From Ligustrum vulgare (lineage: Eukaryota > Streptophyta > Magnoliopsida > Lamiales > Oleaceae), in NCBI GenBank assembly GCA_963555705.1, contig OY743189.1, positions 6,899,501-6,963,500 of the forward strand: DNA of 64,000 nt, given 5' to 3'. A program made the position numbers and the translations under genes. Below, in pieces: positions 4,543-56,240 of the stretch (positions within the stretch are counted from its first letter, which is position 1; each line of letters opens with the position of its first letter). Below the pieces are notes generated by a model. It was not told the origin of the DNA and did not search any database. It saw only the letters and a program-made list of their open reading frames with translations.

Positions 4543-5157
4543 TTGGGAAAATCTGATTCAAAATTCGATGTTGGTATTTTTCTTGGTTATTCATCTATTA
4601 GCAAAGCTTATAGAATTTTTAACAAAATAACTCTAGTAGTGGAAGAATACATGCATGTTACTTTTGATGAAACTAATTCTCTTGATCAACAGAAAGGTGT
4701 TGATGTAGGTTTGGAAATTCCTTTTGAGGGAATGAATATTCATGACCAAATCAATGAAATTTCCAAAGACAATGAAGAAAAAGACTTGGAAGAACCAACT
4801 CCTCAACAAGAAGAAGGAAAATCTTCCAAAAACTCAAGTGATCAAACACTTCCTATAGAATGGAGGTTTGCTCCATCTCACCCAAAAGAGCTCATAATTG
4901 GTGATCCTTCAAAAAGGGTAAGTACTAGAAACTCTACAAAAAAGATTCTTAAATAATTGTGCCTTTATTTCTCAAATTGAACCAAAGAATTTCAAAGAAA
5001 CTGAATTTGATGAGTTTTGGATTCTTGCAATGCAAGAAGAACTAAATAAACTTGAAAGAAACCATGTTTGAGATTTAGTTGATAGACCAAATGATCAAAC
5101 CGTTATTGGTACAAAATGGGTTTTTCGAAACAAAAAGGATGAAAACGATATAATTGT
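4543..5157 (+). pseudogene. Copia integrase C-terminus and start of reverse transcriptase, truncated
   Basis: The frame from 4543 has KFDVGIFLGYSSISKAYRIF, the conserved Copia integrase C-terminal motif, then the acidic Gln-rich linker before RT. After a frameshift near 4950 the RT start is readable: FWILAMQEELNKLERN, a stop where Trp is normal, then VIGTKWVFRNKKD. The match stops at about 5157 in the middle of the RT fingers, where Gypsy LTR sequence begins abruptly. The catalytic YVDD, RNase H and 3' LTR are missing, so a deletion or insertion junction lies at 5157/5158. Confidence 0.8.
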
Positions 5158-5855
5158 GTGGAAGGCAGTGTCTGGTTTTGTGACTGTTTTGATGCTCTTG
5201 GAGGATTGGGTTGTAATGGTGGATTGTTTTGCATTTGGCATGAGCTTTGGGGTGGTATAGGGACTGCTGCAGATTTTGTACATTGGCTGAGTTGGTTCGG
5301 GCATGGTAGCTGCCAGTGTGGTGATGCTGAAGGTGTGGATTGGTTGTGGTAAACTCAATTGTTGTGAATGTGTACATCGTTGAAGTGTATAATTGGGGAA
5401 ATCCTTACCAAACTTGCAATGCATGTGAAGTGAAGGAAATGGGAGGAAGAAGGAGATGATTTATACTCTGTGCCATTGACGTTTTGAGTTTTGAAATTGA
5501 ATAAGGGGAGTTAAAAATTTGGAATGGCTGGAGTTGCACTTGAATCTAGGAGTTAAAATTTTTGTATTGTCTGAATAAATTTTGTATTAATTGAGGAATT
5601 TGAATAATAATAATAATCAGAATTTTGATTATTGGATTAAAATAAAGATTTGGGATAATTAATGATTTTAGACAAAATTTGGAATTCACAAATTAGATTT
5701 AATTGAATTTAAATTTCTTTCTTAAAATCTTAAAAGAACTAATAGGGCTAGATGAGAGCGCTTATTTTGAAAATATTGACCGTTGATATTGGAGAGTCAT
5801 AGCGACAAGTTCCTTAAAGCTAACTTTTAAATTTTAAAATTTCTCGGTCGCTATA
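5158..5855 (-). repeat. 3' LTR (first ~700 bp) of a minus-strand Gypsy element
   Basis: Read on the minus strand from 5855 this begins TATAGCGACCGAGAAATTT, directly after a purine tract. It contains a TATA-like GAGTATAAATCATC about 400 bp in. The segment is repeated with high similarity at about 14694-15396. The LTR is cut at 5158 where it abuts Copia RT sequence. The open frames on the minus strand here (from MYTFTTIEF, MHCKFGKDF) also occur in the second copy, but they are LTR sequence without recognisable domains. Confidence 0.8.
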
Positions 5856-5856
5856 A

Positions 5857-5868
5857 CCTTCCCCACTT
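5857..5868 (-). other. Polypurine tract of the minus-strand Gypsy element
   Basis: On the minus strand AAGTGGGGAAGG sits immediately before the LTR start. It is preceded by TTTCGAGGACGAAATTATTTT, the usual pol-end/PPT arrangement of Tekay/Del elements. It would prime plus-strand cDNA synthesis. Confidence 0.75.
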
Positions 5869-5879
5869 AAAATAATTTC

Positions 5880-6230
5880 GTCCTCGAAATTTAATTCATT
5901 TGATTTGGAAGGTCTGGTATTTGACAAGAATGTCTTCTTCCTTTTTCCCAGGTGACCTCAACTTTACTATATCTATCCCATTAGACTTTGACTAAAGGAA
6001 CTTCTCGATTTCTAAGGACATGGACTTTTTCTCAACCTTATAATCAATCATTTCAATTACGTGTAAATCTACTTCCAAGACTAAACCATCGAAATCTATC
6101 AATATTGCTCTAGCTATCATATCCATATCAATCGTTTCTCCAGATGGCATACTAATCTCGAAAATATTACTAGTTTCGAACTAGCTAGGGATGCTTCAGA
6201 TAATACATTGCATCAAAGTTTGTTACGAAA
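5880..6230 (-). pseudogene. Gypsy protease remnant fused to the chromodomain end (core of pol deleted)
   Basis: Read leftwards from 6230, the frames give protease-like residues (MPSGETIDMDMIARAI, then VLEVDLHVIEM). Within a few codons these pass into sequence resembling the integrase C-terminus/chromodomain of Tekay elements (LRNREVPLVKV and VEVTWEKEEDILVKY, in shifting frames). The RT, RNase H and integrase catalytic core, roughly 2.5-3 kb in an intact element, are absent. The chromodomain end is followed by the FEDEII-type terminus and the polypurine tract. The same region is present at 15397-15604. The assignment is by eye, in more than one frame. Confidence 0.6.
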
Positions 6231-6231
6231 T

Positions 6232-7285
6232 TTATAGGGATGCTAATAGTATACCTGAGCTCACATCAGAATCTCGATTGGCGTCCTCATGGGTCATAGA
6301 GAATACCCTGGCCTTTCCTTTCTTTGTGTGATTGATTTGCCCAGCTTGTTCATTGTTCCTAGTTGACCCGGAGCGATAATCCTTTTCCATGTGACCTGGC
6401 TTCCCGCATTTGTAGCAAACACCCTTACCCAAAGACACTCCCCGCGATGGGGCTTTTTTGACACTTGGGGCATAAGGGAGTAAAACCTAACGTCTGTCCT
6501 CCATTAGGGTTATTGTTGGGTCTCTTATTAGTCGTATTGCTCCTATTCGCGTTCTGATCTTGGTTGTGGTTCTGCCATTTCCTTTTACCCTGCTCGTTTT
6601 TGGAACCCTGTCCTCCATACTTTACACTAGCATAGGACAAGGCCTGAGCTTTCCGTACAACCGCTCGATAGGTAGGCAGCTCATGTGAACTAACAATTTG
6701 TCCTATCTCCGAGCATAGGCCTCTCTCAAATCGATGAGCCTTTTTAGCCTCAGTCTTTACCAAATGTGGAGCATATCATGATAGCTCCTTGAACTTTCTT
6801 TCATAGTTCGTTATGTCCATCTCTCCTTGAGTCAAGCGTAGAAACTCGGTCTCCTTATGGTCTCAAAGGACTTTTGGAAAGAACTTGTCTTTGATCTCGG
6901 CCTTAAACTCATCCCATGTTAAAGCCGCCTGTTCTTCTTCAGTTCTAGTCCGCGAAGCAGACTCACCAAAAGTCGGCCCTTCCGACCAACATGAACTCAG
7001 CACATAAAATCTTCCTATCCTCAGGGAAAGATATGTGCCTAAAGATTTTCTCAATTGTTTGTAGCCATTCCTCAACAGCTAGCAGACCACTTCCGCCATC
7101 AAATGTGGGTTGGCAGTACGTTCTAAATTGCTCTATTATCGGCACTGTGGAAAATGCTGGAGTCTACCTCAAACCATGTACTTCCTGGAGTAGATCCTTG
7201 ATAGCCATGAACTGGGCTGTTGTGTTCTGGGGTAGCCTGATCTGCTGCACTTATGTTTCCTCGCCTCAACATTTCCTTTAAAATG
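6232..7285 (-). pseudogene. gag: Ty3/Gypsy (Tekay/Del-like) gag, frameshifted
   Basis: Reading right to left, the capsid segment is FRTYCQPTFDGGSG, VEEWLQTIEKIFRHISFPED, KILCAEFMLVGRADFW (6963-7145). An overlapping frame then continues LTWDEFKAEIKDKFFPKV (6863-7075), the classical Retrotrans_gag order. A third piece (6425-6763) has KAHRFERGL and a basic, Asn/Gln-rich tail. The last piece (6232-6438) carries the zinc knuckle CYKCGKPGHMEKDY, in which the final Cys is Tyr. At least three frame changes are needed, so this is a decayed Gag. It lies between the extra acidic ORF and the protease remnant. Confidence 0.8.
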
Positions 7286-9300: not shown

Positions 9301-10202
9301 GTTATCGCACCCCGTCCAGTCCTAAAAAACAATATATAATTAAAATCAAACTTTGGAATAATCAAGTCTAGAATAATGAATTTGTGTAAAAGAAAATAGA
9401 GCCTTAAGGACTTTATGGACTAAATCATGAAAATTGGAAAAGTTAGGGATTGTCCGTGCAATAATGAATTGGAATTAGGGACTGGATTAAAGAGTTTTAA
9501 GATGAAAGGATAGACTCATAAGACTTAGAAATCTTTATGGCTGAAAACATAATCTAGGAAAATTTAAGGGCTGAAATAAAATATTTCAAAACTGTAGAGA
9601 CTGAATTAAATTATTTTGAAACTTGGGGACTAAAATAGGAAATTATATCAAAATCAAACTTTAATAAACGGCAGCTTCATTTAAATGACCCAGTCAACAA
9701 AAACATTTATTTAAGAAGACCCACAACAATAATTTTTAGTCCAATAACCTCATTCTAAAAAAAATACAGAAAATGATATATAGAATTACAAATATGCCCA
9801 TAGCATTTACCAAACAAAACATAGCTTTGATTTCATTGTCGTCTTCTTCCTCTTCCCAGGGAAAATTTTCCTCCAAAATGGGTCTTCTTCCTCTCCCCAA
9901 CGAAAATCTTCCTCTAAAATGGGTACCTGCTATCCTTTCTTCTTCCTACTCTTTCTTCTTCTTCAAAATAGGCCATTGATCTCTGTTATTCCTTCTCCAA
10001 ACCACAAAATACATTGTCACTCCATTGAGTGTTAATCTCTTTGAAGGTTGAAAATCCATTTTGTAACATTGATATTGGGCATTTGGAGAAGAAGGGAAGG
10101 TAAGGATGAATTTGAACAATTCTGAACCATTTTCTTCAAGTAATATCTGAATCAATGCCTGTTGGGTGTAATTTTGCCTTTATGCTGTTAATCTGCGCGC
10201 GT
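9301..10202. other. Unassigned AT-rich sequence left of the palindromic array
   Basis: TGTTATCGCACCCCGTCCAG at about 9299 looks like a Gypsy LTR start, so a second LTR fragment may begin here, but I see no matching end. From about 9760 the sequence changes: a pyrimidine-rich, UTR-like stretch (about 9820-9960) follows. A consensus-like splice donor, AAGGTAAGGA, lies near 10096. No coding frame carries a recognisable domain. It could be the outer, non-repetitive part of the palindromic element or a captured promoter/5' UTR. Confidence 0.35.
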
Positions 10203-11576
10203 AACGAGTTCAAAGTCGTTTTGGGCATATTGATGTCGTTATCATGAATCTGTCATTGTCATCCATATTGATTCACCCAACATCGTTCCAGTTTATTAGA
10301 ACTTGAAGTACATTGAATTTCTCCAAGGGAATATAGACGTGAATGCAATAGCTCGAAATGTGTCCCAATGTGGAGGAAGAGATTGACTGCAGAGTTATTG
10401 GCATGAAACTTTGAGCCTTAGTGTACATTGATAAATCTGGATTTTGTTTGTCTAATCATGAATCTTTTTGAGTAGTTGTTTATCTGGAGTGAGGATACTT
10501 GATTTGTATTAGAAATTATGCTTGTGTAGTTGGAGGTTGAATTTATTGTTAGTTGTGCAGACAATAAACATTACATTTTAGATGTGGAAGTGTTTAGGAT
10601 TTATCAATTTTTGTTGGAATGAGAATGATTGATTTTTAGCAGGTTGTTGTTCATTTGATTTTAAACTATAACAAGGTTGAAATCGTTACTTTGCACACAT
10701 ATCGATTTTAACATCGTTCCCATCTAAAAAAGATAGTAACGAGATATAAATCGTTATTTCGTAAACATAACATGTTCAACATCGTTTCTTTTGAAAAGAC
10801 CTTACTGCTTTATTTCTATCCATAACGAGGTTGAACTCGTTACTGTGTACACGTAACGACTTAAATGTCGTTATAGTTACTGCTTCAAAGTCGTTAGTAA
10901 CGATATTAATGTCGTTACAGTTGAAAATACCTTACTGCTTTACTGTTGTTCATAACGACATTGAAATCGTTACTTCATAAAAATAACGACATAAATGTCG
11001 TTACATATATTTACGGATATGCCCTCGTCGTCCAAAATTCCCACCAGTCAACAAATTCGCACTAACTTTTCAAAAACTATGTTTAAGTCATTGTAATGAC
11101 TTCAAATCCGTTATAATTTGGAAGATCGTTTCATTGTAATTGTAACAACATTGAGCTCGTTTGTGTGGAAAATAGCCTAAAACGATGTGGAGGTCGTTAC
11201 TGTTTCAGTAGAACGAGTTTGAGATCGTTATGCTTCAGGCTCAGAAAGTCACATAACGATAATTATGTCGTTTGTTTACAAATTTGACGACATTAAACTC
11301 GTTCCAGTGTACTATATTACCAAAACGATGTCAATGTCTTTTTTTCAATAACAAAACGATATTGGAATCGTTATGTTCACAGCCGAATAAATATCACAAC
11401 GAGTTAAATGTCGTTCTTTCGTAAGTTTGGCGAACTCTATATCGTTTCAGTGTAAATTATTACTATAACGTCGTCTGTATCGTTTCTTCAATCGCAACAC
11501 GATATGTATATCGTTATGACTCAAATCGTTGAGCTGATCGTTCTTTGCCGTCTAAAGTGCCTACAATAGACGTAAT

Positions 11577-11775
11577 CTAACAAAAATGGGTCATAAAAGG
11601 TGATTCAAACACTTTGTAAATCGACATGATTAGAAAGATAGGATCAATATGAGATGAAGTTCCTTTAGTTATCTATTACCTTGGAACTTCTACACTTGAG
11701 AGAAATGATCCTATCTTTCTAATCATGTCGATTTACAAAGTGTTTGAATCACTTTTTACGACCCATTTTTGTTAG
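11577..11775. repeat. Central hairpin: 69-bp inverted repeat with 61-bp loop
   Basis: Left arm 11577-11645 starts CTAACAAAAATGGGTC and ends GATAGGATC. Right arm 11707-11775 is its reverse complement with two mismatches near CATAAAAGG/CGTAAAAAG. The pairing continues outward less perfectly (GATCGTTCTTT..CGT on the left against ACGATCGAATC on the right), showing this is the axis of the larger palindrome. Confidence 0.95.
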
Positions 11776-12029
11776 ATTATGCCCGTTGGAAGCATTTCGG
11801 ATGGTAAAGAACGATCGAATCATCGATTTCATCCATAACGATACACAAGTCGTGTTCCACATGAAGAAACAATATCTAAGCCGTTATAGTTATAATTTAC
11901 ATTGGAACGAGATGCAGTTCGTTAATTTAACACTAGAACGATATGGAAGACGTTATAATGGTTTTTCTGTTTTTGACAAAACGATATTAATATCGTTGCA
12001 TGTGCAAAGAAACGATGTCAATATCGTTT

Positions 12030-13200
12030 TAGTTAATATTTAAACAAGAACGATCTTAATGTCGTTTAATTTGTACAGAAACTACATCGTTGTCGTTATG
12101 TTATTTTCTGATGCTAAATCAAAACGATATGTAACTCGTTATATGTCAAATGAAACGACATATTTATCGTTATAGTTTTATTTTCAACTCCAATGATCTC
12201 AAAATCGTTATTATTACATTGGAACGATTTATCAAATGATCACGATTTTGAAATCGTTACAACGACTTAAACATCGTTACGACAAAACTTGTGCGAGTTT
12301 GTTGACTGTTTGGATTTATGAACGACGAGGGCATTATTGTAAATATGTCGTAACGACATAAACCTCGTTTTGTGTACAAAGTAACGATTTCTACCTCGTT
12401 ATAAATAGATCTGAAGTAGTAACTATAACGACATGAAAATCGTTATGTGTACACAGTAACGACTTCAAGCTCGTTACTACTTTTTTTTTACTATAATGAT
12501 TTTAAATTCGTTATGTGAACAAAGTAACGACTTAGACCTCGAAATGGTTCTCTTGTCGTTATGAGTTCTATTACAATGTACTTATAGCGACAAAAAGTCA
12601 TATATAGCAATAAATAACACATTTTCTCGATGTCGTTAATTTTTAGTCAACATTTCAACTAAAACAATCTCGATGTTGTTAAGTTTTTACAGAAACTACA
12701 TGAATGTCGTTATATTATTTTCAGAAACTGAATTCATACAATACTTAACTCGTTATATACCAAATGAAACCACATCTATATCGTTTTAGTTTATTTTCAA
12801 CTCCACTAATCTCAAAATCGTTATTATTACATTGGAACGATTTACCAAATGATCACGATTTTGAAGTCATTACAACGACTTAAATATCGCTATGACAAAA
12901 TTTGTGCGAGTTTGTTGACAGTTCAAATTTATGGACAAGGAGGGCATTATTGTAAATATTTCTTAACGACATAAACCTTGTTATGTGTATAAAGTAATGA
13001 CTTCTACCTCGTTATGAATATATTCGAAGCAGTAACTATAACGACATTGAACTCGTTACGTGTGCAAAGTAACGATTTAGACCTCGAAAGAGTTCTCTTG
13101 TCGTTATGAGTTCCGTTAAAAGGTATCTATAGTGACAAAAACTATCTATAGCAATAAATAACACATTTTCTCAAATCAGTTTTTAACCACACAAATCTAT
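12030..13200. repeat. Direct duplication (~611-bp period) inside the right palindrome arm
   Basis: The block about 12030-12625 recurs at about 12640-13200. Anchors include TTGTGCGAGTTTGTTGAC at 12290 and 12901, and TTATTACATTGGAACGATTT around 12208 and 12819, both offset by 611 bp. The second copy has lost several AACGA/TCGTT ends by point mutation. Confidence 0.85.
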
Positions 13201-13639
13201 CAACCTTGTTACTATGTTTTTTTTGTATTGGAACAACATGAAATTCGTTACGTGTGCAAAGTAACGGTTTAGACCTCGTTATGAACAGATCTAAAGTATT
13301 ATTTTCTTCTCAACTGCAACGACATTGAACTCGTTATGTGTACACAATAACGAATTCAACCTACTTACCAAGTTTTTCTATTTGAACGACATTAAACTCG
13401 TGGTTTCGAAAGTATTATATAGCGTAACAGTTCTCTAGTTAAAAGAAAACAAATTTATTTGTCTTTCTTTATCATGTGAACAGAATGAATCATCTTGATA
13501 AGCATTTGGAGTCACCCTAAGTTGTCATAATTAACAAATAATATATGCGCATTAACTATTCAATTTATGTTAAACAAAATAAATTTTCATTTAATAAGTC
13601 TATAAAATAATTATTTGGTATTATAAAATAAAATAAAAC

Positions 13640-14170
13640 GTCTAACTTCAATTTTTTTTTTCCAAAATACTTTTAGAAAATATTACATGTTTATTAAATA
13701 TAACTTATTACAAAAAATGTTGGTTCTAATATTTTTTTATTAAATATTAAAGGTTCAATTCATTACTATTTTAAATTAAAATATTTTTAAAAAGTCTTAT
13801 ATGTTTATTAGATATAACTTCTTCCCCAAAGTGTTTTTAGTTCAGTGTTTTGGTTGACTTTATAATATTTTTAATACATATTTATTTGGTAGATATAATT
13901 TATTACAAAAAATGTTATTGGTTCAAGTGGTTTGATCCTTAAACTTTTTAACTAAAAGTACCGGATTCAATTCCTTGAACCTTAGATTTATATAGGAAAG
14001 AAATTTTTTAGAATACAATATATATATGTGTTAGAGATATTTGTTACACAAAATGTTGTTTGATTAAATGGTTTGGTTCTTAAATTTTTTAACAATATGT
14101 GCAGGGTTCAATTCCTTTCAAACTCAGATTTTCGGAGGAAAAAAAAAGAAATTTTAAGTTAACATACTAT
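13640..14170. repeat. Degenerate ~120-130-bp tandem repeat, very AT-rich
   Basis: The phrase TTTATTAGATATAACTTATTACAAAAAATGTT, with changes, recurs at about 13690, 13810, 13890 and 14030. It is often followed by GGTTCAATTCMTT-like sequence and a Phe/Leu-rich AT tract. It lies between the palindromic array and the next LTR. No gene seen. Confidence 0.6.
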
Positions 14171-14269
14171 GGATAAAAATGTCTTTTAACATTTTAATAT
14201 ATTTTTCTATTATATTATTTTTTTACTTTGGCCAAACAAACAAATGTTTTATCAGTACATTAATAAACT

Positions 14270-15396
14270 CAAAACCCTCTCTTTCTCTCTGTATTGGAAC
14301 CGAGAGAGGGAGAGTCGTGCGAGAGAGGAGCACCGGCTCCTCTCGATGTGGTGCATCCGGCGACATTCTCTGGCGATCTGTGTACCACCGTCAAGTAGCG
14401 GCGACGGGGGGTAAACGGTGACGGAAATGGGTAGAATTTGGGGCTAGTTCTGGGCGAAACCAAAGTTGTTGGGTAGTGATTTGGAGCTATGATTCCGGCA
14501 TTATTCCGGTTAATTGGCGGTGGTCGAAGGTAAGTGGTATGTTTCTTGGTTTATTCTTGGTTTGGGCTTTGATTTTGGGTTAGATTTTGAATGAGAAATA
14601 GTTATTGGTGGTCTCGGTAATGGAGGTTATAGTGGTGGTGTGATTATGGTGGATGATGGGAGTCCGGTTTGAGTGATGAAGGTGGCGGGTTGTGGAAGGC
14701 AGTGTCTGGTTTTGCGACTGTTGTGATGATCTTGCAGGATTGGGTTGTAATGGTGGATTGTTTTGCATTTGGCATGAGGTTTGGGGTGGTATAGGGATGG
14801 CTGCCGCAGATTTTGTACAATTGCTGAGCTGGTTCGGGTATGGTAGCTGCCAGTGTGGCGATGCTGAAGGTGTGGATTGGTTGTGGTAAACTCAATTGTT
14901 GTGAATGTGTACATCGTTGAAGTGTATAATTGGGGAAATCCTTACCAAACTTGCAGTGTGTGTAAAGTGAAGGAAATGGGAGGAAGAAGGAGATGATTTA
15001 TACTCTGTGTTGTTGACGTTTTGAGTTTTGAAATTGAATAGGGGAGTTAAGAATTTGTCTTAACTCGTAATGGCTGGAGTTGCACTTGAATTTGGCTGGG
15101 AGTTAAATTTTTGGATTTATTGTCTGAATTAATTTAGGATTTTGAATTATAATAATAATCAAAATTTTGATTATTGGATTAAAATAAAATTTTGGGATAA
15201 AATAATGATTTAGACAAAATTTTGATTTCGTAAATTAGATTTAAATGAATTTAAGTTTCTTTTTAAAAATCTTAAAATAATTAATAGGGCTAGACGAGAG
15301 TCTTATTTTGAAAATAGTGACAGTAGATGTTGAAGAGTCATAGCAACAAGTACGTTAAAACTAACTTTTAAATTTGAAAATTTCTCGGTTGTTACA
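14270..15396 (-). repeat. 5' part of a minus-strand Gypsy LTR (second copy)
   Basis: On the minus strand the LTR starts at 15396 with TGTAACAACCGAGAAATTT, after the polypurine tract, and has GAGTATAAATCATC as probable TATA box near 15000. The first ~700 bp match 5158-5855. A further 420 bp, more GC-rich and with GAGAGGGAGAGTCG-type sequence, extend to about 14270. The LTR end (GGGGCGTTACA) is not attached here; the piece starting at 8336 has it. The likeliest reading is one LTR split by the 9.7-14.2 kb insertions. Confidence 0.65.
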
Positions 15397-15604
15397 ACCT
15401 TCTCCACTTAAAATAATTTCGTTCGCGAAATTTAATTCATTTGTTCTGCGAGATCTGGGTATTTGACAAGAATGTATTCTTCCTTTTTCCCAGGTGACCT
15501 CAACTTTACTATATCTATCCCGTTGGACTTTAACTAAAGAAACTTCTCGATTTATAAGGACATGGACTTTTTCTCAACCTCATAATCAATCATTTCAATT
15601 ACGT
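15397..15604 (-). pseudogene. Second copy of the Gypsy polypurine tract and chromodomain end
   Basis: The minus strand shows AAGTGGAGAAGGT next to the LTR, TTTCGCGAACGAAATT, and the degraded chromodomain terminus, closely matching 5856-6060. Similarity stops at 15604 inside AATTGAAATGATTG, where an unrelated plus-strand Gypsy fragment begins. With 8336 it implies internal sequence on both sides of one LTR, as in recombined tandem elements. Confidence 0.6.
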
Positions 15605-15605
15605 G

Positions 15606-53791: not shown

Positions 53792-56240
53792 ATGTCAGGA
53801 TCTAAACGATCTACACCACTACCAAGTATAGGGAGTACAAAACAAGGTCCAACCGGTGATAGCACTTCGAACACTCCGGTTAGTAATATCCCGCAAAGTG
53901 ATCCAATTGAAGAAAATGTGGATCAAACTCCAAATCCAATAAACTTAAGTGAAGAGGAGCATGATAGTGGACAGTCAAAGAGGAAAAAGTTTTCTAAGGT
54001 TTGGGAACACTTTACATTGGAAAAAATTAATGAACAGATAAAAGCTATATGTAATCATTGCAAAACAAAATTAGGGGGTGAATCCAAAAATGGTTCCAAT
54101 CATTTGCATAATCATCTCAACAGATGTATCTTTAAAACGGATAGTCATAGTAAGAGTCGGCAAGCAACATTTAAATTCACCAAAGAAGTTTCTAGTGGTA
54201 AGGTTACTATGAGCAATTACAACTTTGATCAAGATAAGTGTAGCTCAAATCTTAGGAGAATGTTAATTCTACATGAGTATCCTCTGTCTATGGTTGATCA
54301 CATTGGCTTTAGATCATTCATGAACGACGTTCAACCATTATTTAAAGTCCCTTCTCGTAATACTATTAAGAATGACATCTTAAAGATTTATGACTACGAG
54401 AAATCAAAAATGATGACCTTGTTGAAGAATAATGAGGGGAGAATTTCCATCACTACGGACATGTGGACGGCTTCTAATCAGAAGAAAGGATTTATGGTGA
54501 ACACGACTCATTACATAGATGATTCTTGGACACTTCAAAGCTGTATTATGAGGTAAATTAATTTGACTTCCTCTCATACTTCTACAAACTTAAATTGGTT
54601 GTAATTTTTTTGGTTTGTTTTTAATCTTAGGTTCATATATATTCCATGCCCACACACTGTGGATGTGCTTTCAAAGGAGTTGGTGGGTTGCTTGGTGGAC
54701 TGGATTACTAATCGTAAGTTATCAACTTTGACTTTACATAACTGTACGACAAATGATGCAATGATTAATAGTGTTAGGCAAACTTTCTTCACGTTCACTT
54801 TTGTTGAGTGGTGAATTTTTTCACATGAGATGTTGTGCACATATTTTGAATCTTATTGTGAAGGATGGTTTGGAGATTATTAGTTGTAGTGTTGAGAAAA
54901 TCCATGAAAGCGTTGTATTTTGGACAAACAGGCCAAAGAGATCAGAAAAAATTGAGTATTATGCTCGCCAATTGGATATAAATTGTTCCAAAAAATTGAT
55001 CCTTGATTGTAAAACTAGGTGGAACTCGACATTTTTTATGCTTCGTACTGCTTTACAGTATAAGGATGTTTTTCCTCGTTTAAAGCAAAGAGAATCATTA
55101 TATAGATGTTTGACTAGTGAGGAAGATTGGGATTTGGCGGAAAGGATTTTGAGAGGTTAGAAGTTTTTTTTTTTGAGGTTACTGAATTATTTTCTGGGAC
55201 GAAGTATCCAACATCAAATCTTTTCTTTCCAAATATTTTTCGAATAAAGTTGTCATTGCGTGATTGGGTTACTTCTTCTTGTGTGGAAATTCAAATGATG
55301 GCTTCTGGCATGATTGAAAAGTTTAACAAATATTGGTCTGAAATTCATGGGATATTGGCTGTAGCAATAGTTTTAGATCCGAGATATAAGATGAAGTTAG
55401 TGGAGTATTATTACCCTCGTATTTTTAAAGATGGAGCTTTAGTGAAATTGAAAATGTACGCCAAGTTTGTCGCAAGTTGGTGCAAGAGTATCAGATAAAA
55501 CATGGTTTGAGTGGGGCTGTTAATCATTCATCTACGTCTTCGTATCAGACTGACTTGCCTATTAATACGGGGAAAATAGATCCAATGGCAGACTTCTATG
55601 AATTTGTTTCTAGTACCTCAAACACTATCAATGTGAAAACTGAGCTCTATACTTTCTTGGATGAGCCTATATTACCTCAGTCGGATAATTTTGACATATT
55701 ATCATGGTGGAAGGTAAATACAATCAAATATCCAATTAATATCTCGAGTTGCAAGAGATGTATTAGCCATCTCGGTATCTACAGTGGCATCTGAGTCTGC
55801 CTTCAGTACTAGTGGTAGATTTGTGAGTCCACATAGAAATAGACTTCATCCCAAAACTTTGGAGGCTTTGATGTGTGCTAAAGATTGGTTATGGGTCGAA
55901 ATTTATGGTACGAGAACGAGAAATATATTTATTATTTACGTAGATTTCATATTATATTTTTCTTGTGAATTGTAATTTCATCAATTGCTAATTTATTTAT
56001 TCTGTGGATAGCAAACCAAGCACTTCAAATGTATCGTGGATGTTGTACAAAGTTGAGTGATGAAGATATTGATGAAGATGTAATTTTATTTTTCATTTAA
56101 TGAAAAATATATAGTTAAAAAGTAGTATAAACATTATGATAATATCTAATGCGATATTTAATTCACCTTTGACCTTACAGGAAACTTCTTACGTTGTCGA
56201 TGACCATAGCATGAATGATGAAGAAGATTGCTATGATTAA
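53792..56240 (+). pseudogene. hAT transposase (BED zinc finger, RICESLEEPER-like), frameshifted
   Basis: Exon 1 (53792-54552) has an acidic Ser/Thr-rich start and a BED finger (VWEHFTLEKI, CNHCKTKL, HLHNHLNRC, about residues 67-115) for binding element ends. It continues with MVDHIGFRSFMNDVQPLF and SITTDMWTASNQKKGFM, holding the first catalytic Asp. A GT-AG intron is likely at 54553-54630. Exon 2 continues FIYIPCPHTVDVL, then LTLHNCTTNDAM, where the second catalytic Asp (VDN) is His. A frameshift near 54780 leads to HMRCCAHILNLIVKDGL, then KTRWNSTFFML. Two more frameshifts precede TVASESAFSTSGRF and HPKTLEALMCAKDWLW, the C-terminal dimerisation region. Introns probably also flank the short last exons, ending near 56240. 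Confidence 0.9.
54553..54630 (+). other. Probable intron in the hAT transposase
   Basis: It runs from GTAAATTAATTTG to TTTTTAATCTTAG with a T-rich 3' end, and removing it joins conserved hAT sequence (..SCIMR to FIYIPCPHT) in frame. Confidence 0.7.

Follow-up and report, generated by a model that had tools for sequence, protein, structure and literature searches.

The 64,000-nucleotide stretch analysed here (the window) is taken from Ligustrum vulgare (assembly GCA_963555705.1, contig OY743189.1, positions 6,899,501 to 6,963,500). It contains an array of short dyads of the design AACGA-N8-TCGTT, in which two fixed five-base arms enclose eight core bases. The array is not a satellite; it makes up the inner part of a ~4.6-kb DNA transposon with dispersed copies, because similarity to other copies stops at the boundary, the flanks are duplicated, the two ends occur in pairs, and copies are found genome-wide. 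A preliminary description of the array missed this place inside a transposon with ends and a target-site duplication of its own. The positions of the features are given in Table 1.

At the left boundary, similarity to other copies stopped at 9661-9675. The flanks of 18 of the 19 other left-end loci could not be aligned to those of the window across this boundary; the remaining locus (L069) had a related flank. Among the three copies for which both flanks were examined, two were flanked by a 9-bp duplication, i.e. TTAATAAAC in the window and ATTTTTTAC at C4:57591158. With the right end taken from other copies, the inverted match between the two ends was 26 of 51 positions (shuffle mean 13.2, p 0.00005). 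Genome-wide, we counted 48 left ends (≤2 mismatches) and 58 right ends (≤3 mismatches), against none for the reversed control in either case. A right end lay within 25 kb of 26 left ends, and 15 of these pairs were 4.5-4.7 kb apart. Furthermore, a 141-base piece of the array gave 596 first-look candidates in the 1.385-Gb genome, and the 40 that were scored were 96-100% identical.

The 9-bp duplication falls within the 8-11 bp of Mutator-like elements (MULEs), and the degenerate match between the ends agrees with the absent or short degenerate terminal inverted repeats (TIRs) of VANDALs, the non-TIR MULEs. The VANDAL group of Mutator elements is described as having 9-bp duplications and short or degenerate ends (PMC6446971; for the degenerate ends also PMC10398659). 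Four open reading frames inside the transposon gave no Pfam family at E ≤ 0.1. The element is likely a non-autonomous VANDAL-like Mutator element.

In 12 of 20 right-end loci (L041-L060), the last ~25 bases, ending in GAGGTATATCTCAACTAATTCCCC or variants of it (AACTAATTC-type ends), were present, and seven continued into another common sequence. Seven loci (L043, L045, L046, L048, L049, L051 and L058) form a subfamily in which the right end is extended by ~0.5 kb and closes in a related CAGCTAATTCTCC end. This extension partly repeats the right side of the element itself (about 70%), and the element ends seem to have been re-made by duplication in this subfamily.

In total, the window has 25 exact AACGA-N8-TCGTT sites, all at 10203-13335, where 100 shuffles predict 0.03, and the exact counts at gaps N0-N7 and N9-N24 were zero throughout the window. 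When one mismatch was allowed, the region 10200-13410 contained 47 sites at N8, none at N7, one at N9, four at N13 and nine at N14. Thirty dispersed loci (L011-L040, a set that takes in the window's own copy) contained 644 exact N8 sites, none at N2-N7 or N9-N14, and a single one at N15. The majority consensus, built from 67 loci of which some are different parts of one element, had 30 exact N8 sites and 52 with ≤1 mismatch (hereafter the consensus sites), compared with none of either class at N7 and, at N9, no exact site and one with ≤1 mismatch. The bare pattern was less clean genome-wide than in the window, with 6143 matches at N8, only 544 at N7, and as many as 4140 at N9. These N9 matches look dispersed, as none of the first 50 listed lay within 1 kb of another match, compared with 39 of 50 for the bare N8 pattern and 46 of 50 for a refined pattern introduced below (the first 50 places listed per pattern are all on C1).

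Distances of 1.0 kb on the left and 0.86 kb on the right separate the dense array from the ends of the element; the exact site at 10203 stands apart from it. The commonest step between neighbouring consensus sites was 31 bp (18 of 51), followed by 38, 43, 44, 37 and 55 bp, and the series 31, 38, 31, 43 recurs along the array. Tandem Repeats Finder returned no row within 10203-13402, and only 37 of the 2687 distinct 24-mers of the array recur. The exact counts, the spacing controls and the absence of a Tandem Repeats Finder row imply that the pattern is real and that the array is no ordinary tandem repeat. Several claims of the preliminary description were borne out: five-base arms at a fixed distance of exactly eight bases, neighbours often ~31 bp apart, and an array unlike a satellite in which the whole monomer is conserved. 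At a separate place (L010, C1:4282792-4283672), four AACGA-N8-TCGTT sites (≤1 mismatch) lie 239-318 bp apart outside the transposon's array; they are possibly a relative or a different repeat.

A logo of the 52 consensus sites revealed more fixed bases than the arms. Core position 3 was T in 49 sites and core position 6 was A in 47 (T3 and A6), position -2 was a purine in 48, position +19 was a pyrimidine in 47, and core position 1 was C, T or G but A in none. The full motif reads RN-AACGA-NN-T-NN-A-NN-TCGTT-NY and, given these fixed inner and flanking bases, the site is a dyad of the half-site RNAACGANNTN. Both T3 and A6 were present in 22 of the 25 exact sites in the window. The refined pattern, with T3 and A6 added, is AACGANNTNNANNTCGTT; it kept 4772 of the 6143 genome-wide N8 matches, whereas the reversed control dropped from 1859 to 195. 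The earlier view that the cores diverge widely thus stands in that 49 of 52 were distinct, but the core is not free, and conservation extends beyond the ends and spacing to T3, A6 and the flanking R(-2) and Y(+19).

Table 1. Coordinates in the window of the transposon, its ends, its internal repeats and the exact AACGA-N8-TCGTT sites.
Feature	Position	Strand	Basis
Array-bearing transposon, 4590 bp, no recognised coding domain	9670..14259	+	copy comparison (left), duplicated flank (right)
Left target-site duplication TTAATAAAC, 9 bp	9661..9669	.	sequence
Right target-site duplication TTAATAAAC, 9 bp	14260..14268	.	sequence
Left terminal region GGC..CTTCATTTAAATGACCCAGTCAAC.., degenerate inverted repeat of right end	9670..9721	+	26/51 matches
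Right subterminal stretch; window copy lacks the last ~25 bases (..GAGGTATATCTCAACTAATTCCCC and variants)	14231..14255	+	copy comparison
Shared element ends: left GGC..CTTCATTTAAATGACCCAGTC, right GAGGTATATCTCAACTAATTCCCC
Dense site array, first to last consensus site with ≤1 mismatch	10670..13402	.	site counts, consensus
Long imperfect inverted repeat made by the array itself, fold about ~11680	10820..12547	.	70.6% over 1776 columns vs own reverse complement
Direct duplication in right half, first copy	12027..12473	+	84.1% identical to 12641-13086
Direct duplication in right half, second copy	12641..13086	+	84.1% identical to 12027-12473
Exact site, core GTTCAAAG, T3/A6 kept	10203..10220	.
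Exact site, core GATATAAA, T3/A6 kept	10738..10755	.
Exact site, core GGTTGAAC, T3/A6 kept	10824..10841	.
Exact site, core CTTAAATG, T3/A6 kept	10855..10872	.
Exact site, core TATTAATG, T3/A6 kept	10899..10916	.
Exact site, core CATTGAAA, T3/A6 kept	10954..10971	.
Exact site, core CATAAATG, T3/A6 kept	10985..11002	.
Exact site, core TGTGGAGG, T3/A6 kept	11181..11198	.
Exact site, core GTTTGAGA, T3/A6 kept	11212..11229	.
Exact site, core TAATTATG, T3/A6 not kept	11255..11272	.
Exact site, core TATTGGAA, A6 not kept	11355..11372	.
Exact site, core GTTAAATG, T3/A6 kept	11398..11415	.
Exact site, core GATGCAGT, T3/A6 kept	11906..11923	.
Exact site, core TATTAATA, T3/A6 kept	11980..11997	.
Exact site, core TGTCAATA, T3/A6 kept	12011..12028	.
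Exact site, core TCTTAATG, T3/A6 kept	12049..12066	.
Exact site, core TATGTAAC, T3/A6 kept	12123..12140	.
Exact site, core CATATTTA, A6 not kept	12154..12171	.
Exact site, core CTTAAACA, T3/A6 kept	12261..12278	.
Exact site, core CATAAACC, T3/A6 kept	12352..12369	.
Exact site, core TTTCTACC, T3/A6 kept	12383..12400	.
Exact site, core CATGAAAA, T3/A6 kept	12427..12444	.
Exact site, core CTTCAAGC, T3/A6 kept	12458..12475	.
Exact site, core CATTGAAC, T3/A6 kept	13040..13057	.
Exact site, core CATTGAAC, T3/A6 kept	13318..13335	.

Conservation of the sites was assessed by three identity comparisons. In each, sites were taken by a single half-site word, which keeps the other arm from being picked for its conservation; each alignment was counted from both copies. 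Between the two inverted halves of the array, identity was 340/385 (0.883) in the arms and 74/78 (0.949) at T3/A6, compared with 449/657 (0.683) in the spacers and 0.492 in the remainder of the core. The locus-A copies compared with the consensus gave 433/458 (0.945) for the arms, 87/91 (0.956) for T3/A6, 733/851 (0.861) for the spacers and 0.829 for the other core positions. In the direct duplication, the values were 153/174 (0.879), 34/36 (0.944), 310/372 (0.833) and 0.700, respectively. The offset profile of the inverted halves was high at 0-4, 7, 10 and 13-17; its minimum fell on the two bases of the dyad centre (0.36 and 0.38).

Variants among 29 array loci were divided into shared variants, present in two or more copies, and private variants, at sites with ≤2 mismatches; the sites were chosen on the consensus, and the loci are those that best matched a single piece of the array. 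Shared non-CpG variants were about four-fold rarer in the arms (4 in 372 positions) than in the spacers (70 in 1482; p 0.0005). At CpG positions, shared variants numbered 29/194 in the arms and 17/64 in the spacers (p 0.04), while private variants were alike (84/194 and 27/64). These results support, but do not prove, the view that the normal CpG rate applies to the origin of copies with broken arms, but that such copies leave fewer descendants. The pattern of conservation also supports selection on the site of a dimeric protein over selection on a stem-loop.

The centre of the dyad behaved differently from the arms. In 23 site pairs of the inverted halves, 28 of 46 centre positions differed; the spacer figure, obtained by halving a double count, was about 104 of 328 (p 0.0002). 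The 29 copies showed no excess of variants at the centre. The centre may be diversifying or simply unconstrained. CpG decay was rejected as the main cause of the variable centre: TG, CA and CG occurred in 8, 7 and 2 of the 52 sites (4.6, 6.7 and 3.8 expected), and transversions were seen.

The preliminary description stated that no plant element family with such a signature was known. This was overtaken by Arabidopsis VANDAL Mutator elements, which carry arrays of a short bound motif in their non-coding DNA (PMC5735166). There, VANC21 binds the motif arrayed in VANDAL21 and removes methylation, while VANC6 uses a different motif, AGTTGTCC/AGTTGTAC (PMC5735166). By analogy, we tentatively propose, with slightly less than even confidence, that a dimeric DNA-binding protein docks at the sites in Ligustrum, and predict that it is an anti-silencing factor of the VANC type which an autonomous relative provides in trans. 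The genome has many MULE and DUF1985 candidates (4690 and 2382 at first look), which is in keeping with this. Each half-site RNAACGANNTN would be bound by one subunit of a homodimer; the exact width, the fixed inner contacts and the free centre would then be the footprint of the dimer on its two half-sites. Site pairs at 31 bp, about three helical turns, may be bound cooperatively. The bound protein would remove or block DNA methylation over the element, and copies that keep their sites would then propagate. The protein probably comes from an autonomous relative, since spreading seems to depend on intact sites and no gene was recognised in the element; it is predicted to serve either the escape from silencing or the movement of the element. 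The suggestion of a dimeric DNA-binding protein had already been made from the sequence alone, and the exact width, together with arms and T3/A6 that outlast the spacers, is in line with it.

Several observations weigh against this proposal. In the third copy with both flanks examined (C22:3798463), the left 9-mer lay 18 bp beyond the right end. The arms of the direct duplication were hardly more conserved than its spacers (0.879 versus 0.833). Private non-CpG variants were also somewhat rarer in the arms (42/372 versus 252/1482, or 0.113 versus 0.170 per position), and the contrast between private and shared variants was weak (p 0.048 for non-CpG and p 0.12 for CpG); part of the arm deficit could therefore be an effect of mutation or of selecting the sites by the consensus. 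Neither YAGTATTAY nor AGTTGTCC/AGTTGTAC is the motif of the array, and the VANC21 motifs are described in one orientation (PMC5735166); as the published motifs belong to single families, a VANC-like protein may nonetheless bind here. Moreover, the family could be tied to neither a transposase, a VANC-like gene nor an autonomous copy among the 150 of 4690 MULE and 150 of 2382 DUF1985 first-look candidates that were scored, all of which were above the family cut-off. None of the scored MULE places lay within 40 kb of the 106 termini. For MULE and DUF1985 together, one of 300 did; as about 1.8 were expected by chance, this is no evidence of a partner. The place concerned is a DUF1985 frame at C8:63273234, 7 kb from a right-end match (C8:63273234-63280290), which may belong to a relative that carries genes.

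Four wide pairs of ends were also found, namely C22:3798463 (14.6 kb), C16:22850376-22865041 (14.6 kb), C2:71899290-71913774 (14.5 kb) and C7:45880705-45891536 (10.8 kb). The C22 copy was rejected as the autonomous partner, as the interior beside its left end is a long terminal repeat (LTR), with the query matching twice, 6.67 kb apart, at 100%; it is therefore a 4.6-kb element with a nested retrotransposon. Its interior (L067, C22:3798857-3806725) is an LTR retrotransposon in which two LTR stretches of 1.2 kb are identical and lie 6.67 kb from each other. This retrotransposon had 1401 candidates, and the 40 that were scored were all 100% (rounded) identical, apparently the result of a very recent burst.

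A bolder extension of the docking-site proposal, which we regard as speculative and rather doubtful, is that a dimeric VANC-like factor outside the Arabidopsis VANDALs reads the 18-bp dyad in such a way that only the contacted bases are kept and the rest, above all the two bases of the centre, drifts, leaving dozens of sites with almost no common 24-base word for small RNAs. Given the few recurring 24-mers and the least-conserved centre, docking sites could thus accumulate with little repeated sequence for small RNAs to target. No excess of variants was seen at the centre among recent copies, and such evasion is a hypothesis. If the docking-site proposal is right, the array would be a natural test of how transposons assemble many protein sites without making repeats open to small RNAs.

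Other explanations account for parts of the same evidence. In the main rival, the sites would instead be bound by the family's own transposase, many dimers of which would be loaded to synapse and move distant copies, with no anti-silencing role. The site evidence is the same as for the docking sites of an anti-silencing factor, shared variants are rarer in the arms, as expected if movement needs intact sites, and other transposons have repeated sites near their ends, e.g. Muta1 of Aedes (PMC5225508). We nevertheless consider this explanation rather unlikely, since the dense array is interior and not terminal, and no transposase was linked to the family among the scored MULE candidates. Binding by a host dimeric transcription factor, with the sites used by the transposon as enhancers, appears improbable. 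Transcription factor dimers favour dyads whose spacing is fixed and pairs of sites that cooperate over 31 bp, and insertions of the element occur at many places; yet host loci outside the element would be expected, whereas 46 of the first 50 listed refined sites, all on C1, lie within 1 kb of another. No host factor with AACGANNTNNANNTCGTT is known to us, although no search aimed at one was made.

The preliminary description had also raised a stem-loop. As nucleic-acid structure, the dyads would act as 5-bp stems with 8-base loops, or as a large foldback hairpin that feeds small-RNA silencing. The arms are complementary, five 18-mers had folding energies of -1.9 to -5.4 kcal/mol as single-stranded DNA, and the whole array is a 1.7-kb imperfect inverted repeat. 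However, core pairs 1-8, 2-7 and 4-5 were complementary in 12, 12 and 12 of the 52 sites, against 16.7, 16.0 and 15.0 by column composition, and, judged by eye, both bases of a pair had changed in none of the 11 consensus sites with two arm mismatches. In addition, T3 and A6 are fixed although they lie within the loop, and a large foldback could form without an exact N8 width, which makes this explanation very improbable. Hardly credible is an old satellite in which chance or recent duplication accounts for the conserved arms: a section of the right half is directly duplicated at 84% and the steps repeat, but the near-unique cores, the scarcity of recurring 24-mers, the empty Tandem Repeats Finder result and the arms that outlast the spacers all argue against it.

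In the window, a direct repeat (5157-6063 and 14691-15605, 88.6% identical) appears by eye to represent parts of the LTRs of a minus-strand Ty3/gypsy element with gag-like frames at 6232-7163, and the array transposon is nested within this gypsy LTR. The transposon copy at L069 (C4:15761058 region) has a flank that aligns to the same gypsy LTR (76-92%); either the nesting was shared via the LTR element, or there was a second insertion at the same place. Another copy (L005-L007, C1:16376133-16385817) is interrupted by an insertion of ~9.7 kb, the open frames of which by eye resemble an endogenous plant pararetrovirus or an LTR element. Within a further array copy, a ~2-kb insertion contains long reading frames (L008:7065-8171, minus strand), the first of which had sub-threshold Pfam matches only. 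Elsewhere in the window, 53792-54556 encodes a BED zinc-finger protein (PF02892), by eye the start of a hAT transposase, with more frames downstream to ~55794.

Repeated protein sites are also a feature of CACTA (En/Spm) transposons, which carry many subterminal TNPA-type sites for an element-encoded protein between ends CACTA...TAGTG with a 3-bp duplication. The likeness lies in the many copies of a short site; in Ligustrum, however, the sites are interior. Membership of CACTA was rejected on the ends (GGC...CCCC) and the 9-bp duplication. TnpA has a demethylating role (PMC10398659). Muta1 of Aedes aegypti, a Mutator-like element assigned to type 2 Foldback, resembles the Ligustrum family in its duplications of 8-9 bp, in the repetition of subterminal motifs and in the abundance of non-autonomous copies, but its 145-bp ends hold a 12-bp direct tandem repeat in 9 copies, compared with about 50 interior dyads here (PMC5225508).

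The closest likeness is to VANDAL21 and VANC21, where Mutator elements that have degenerate ends and 9-bp duplications carry many repeats of a short motif in their non-coding parts, and the motif is family-specific and dense in that family alone (PMC5735166, PMC10398659). The Ligustrum array likewise consists of a dense short motif in non-coding DNA confined to one family, as indicated by the 52 consensus sites and the clustering of the refined pattern among the first 50 places listed. VANC21, in contrast, recognises YAGTATTAY, a 9-bp non-palindromic motif in one orientation, in tandem repeats that change together (PMC5735166, PMC10398659), whereas the array here has an 18-bp dyad, near-unique cores, a long inverted-repeat layout and no linked VANC gene. 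The targets of VANC6 are similar in that motif arrays occur in non-coding regions of related VANDAL families, with a motif that differs by family, but AGTTGTCC/AGTTGTAC is unrelated to AACGANNTNNANNTCGTT (PMC5735166). A literature search for AACGA and TCGTT as whole words with "transposable element", a weak test, found no papers, and one for VANDAL together with Oleaceae found 11, none of them on transposons as judged by title. If the docking-site proposal is true, motif arrays read by a transposon protein are not peculiar to Arabidopsis VANDALs. The Ligustrum array would be unusually legible, since its dyad is complete, exact in width and clear in its half-site, and each copy holds natural variants by the dozen; AACGANNTNNANNTCGTT offers a genome search pattern for the family and its helper, and the dyad a ready binding assay. 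Since motif arrays read by a transposon protein are already known, the array is a variation on a known theme; what is new is the long palindromic site, the near-unique cores and the inverted-repeat layout.

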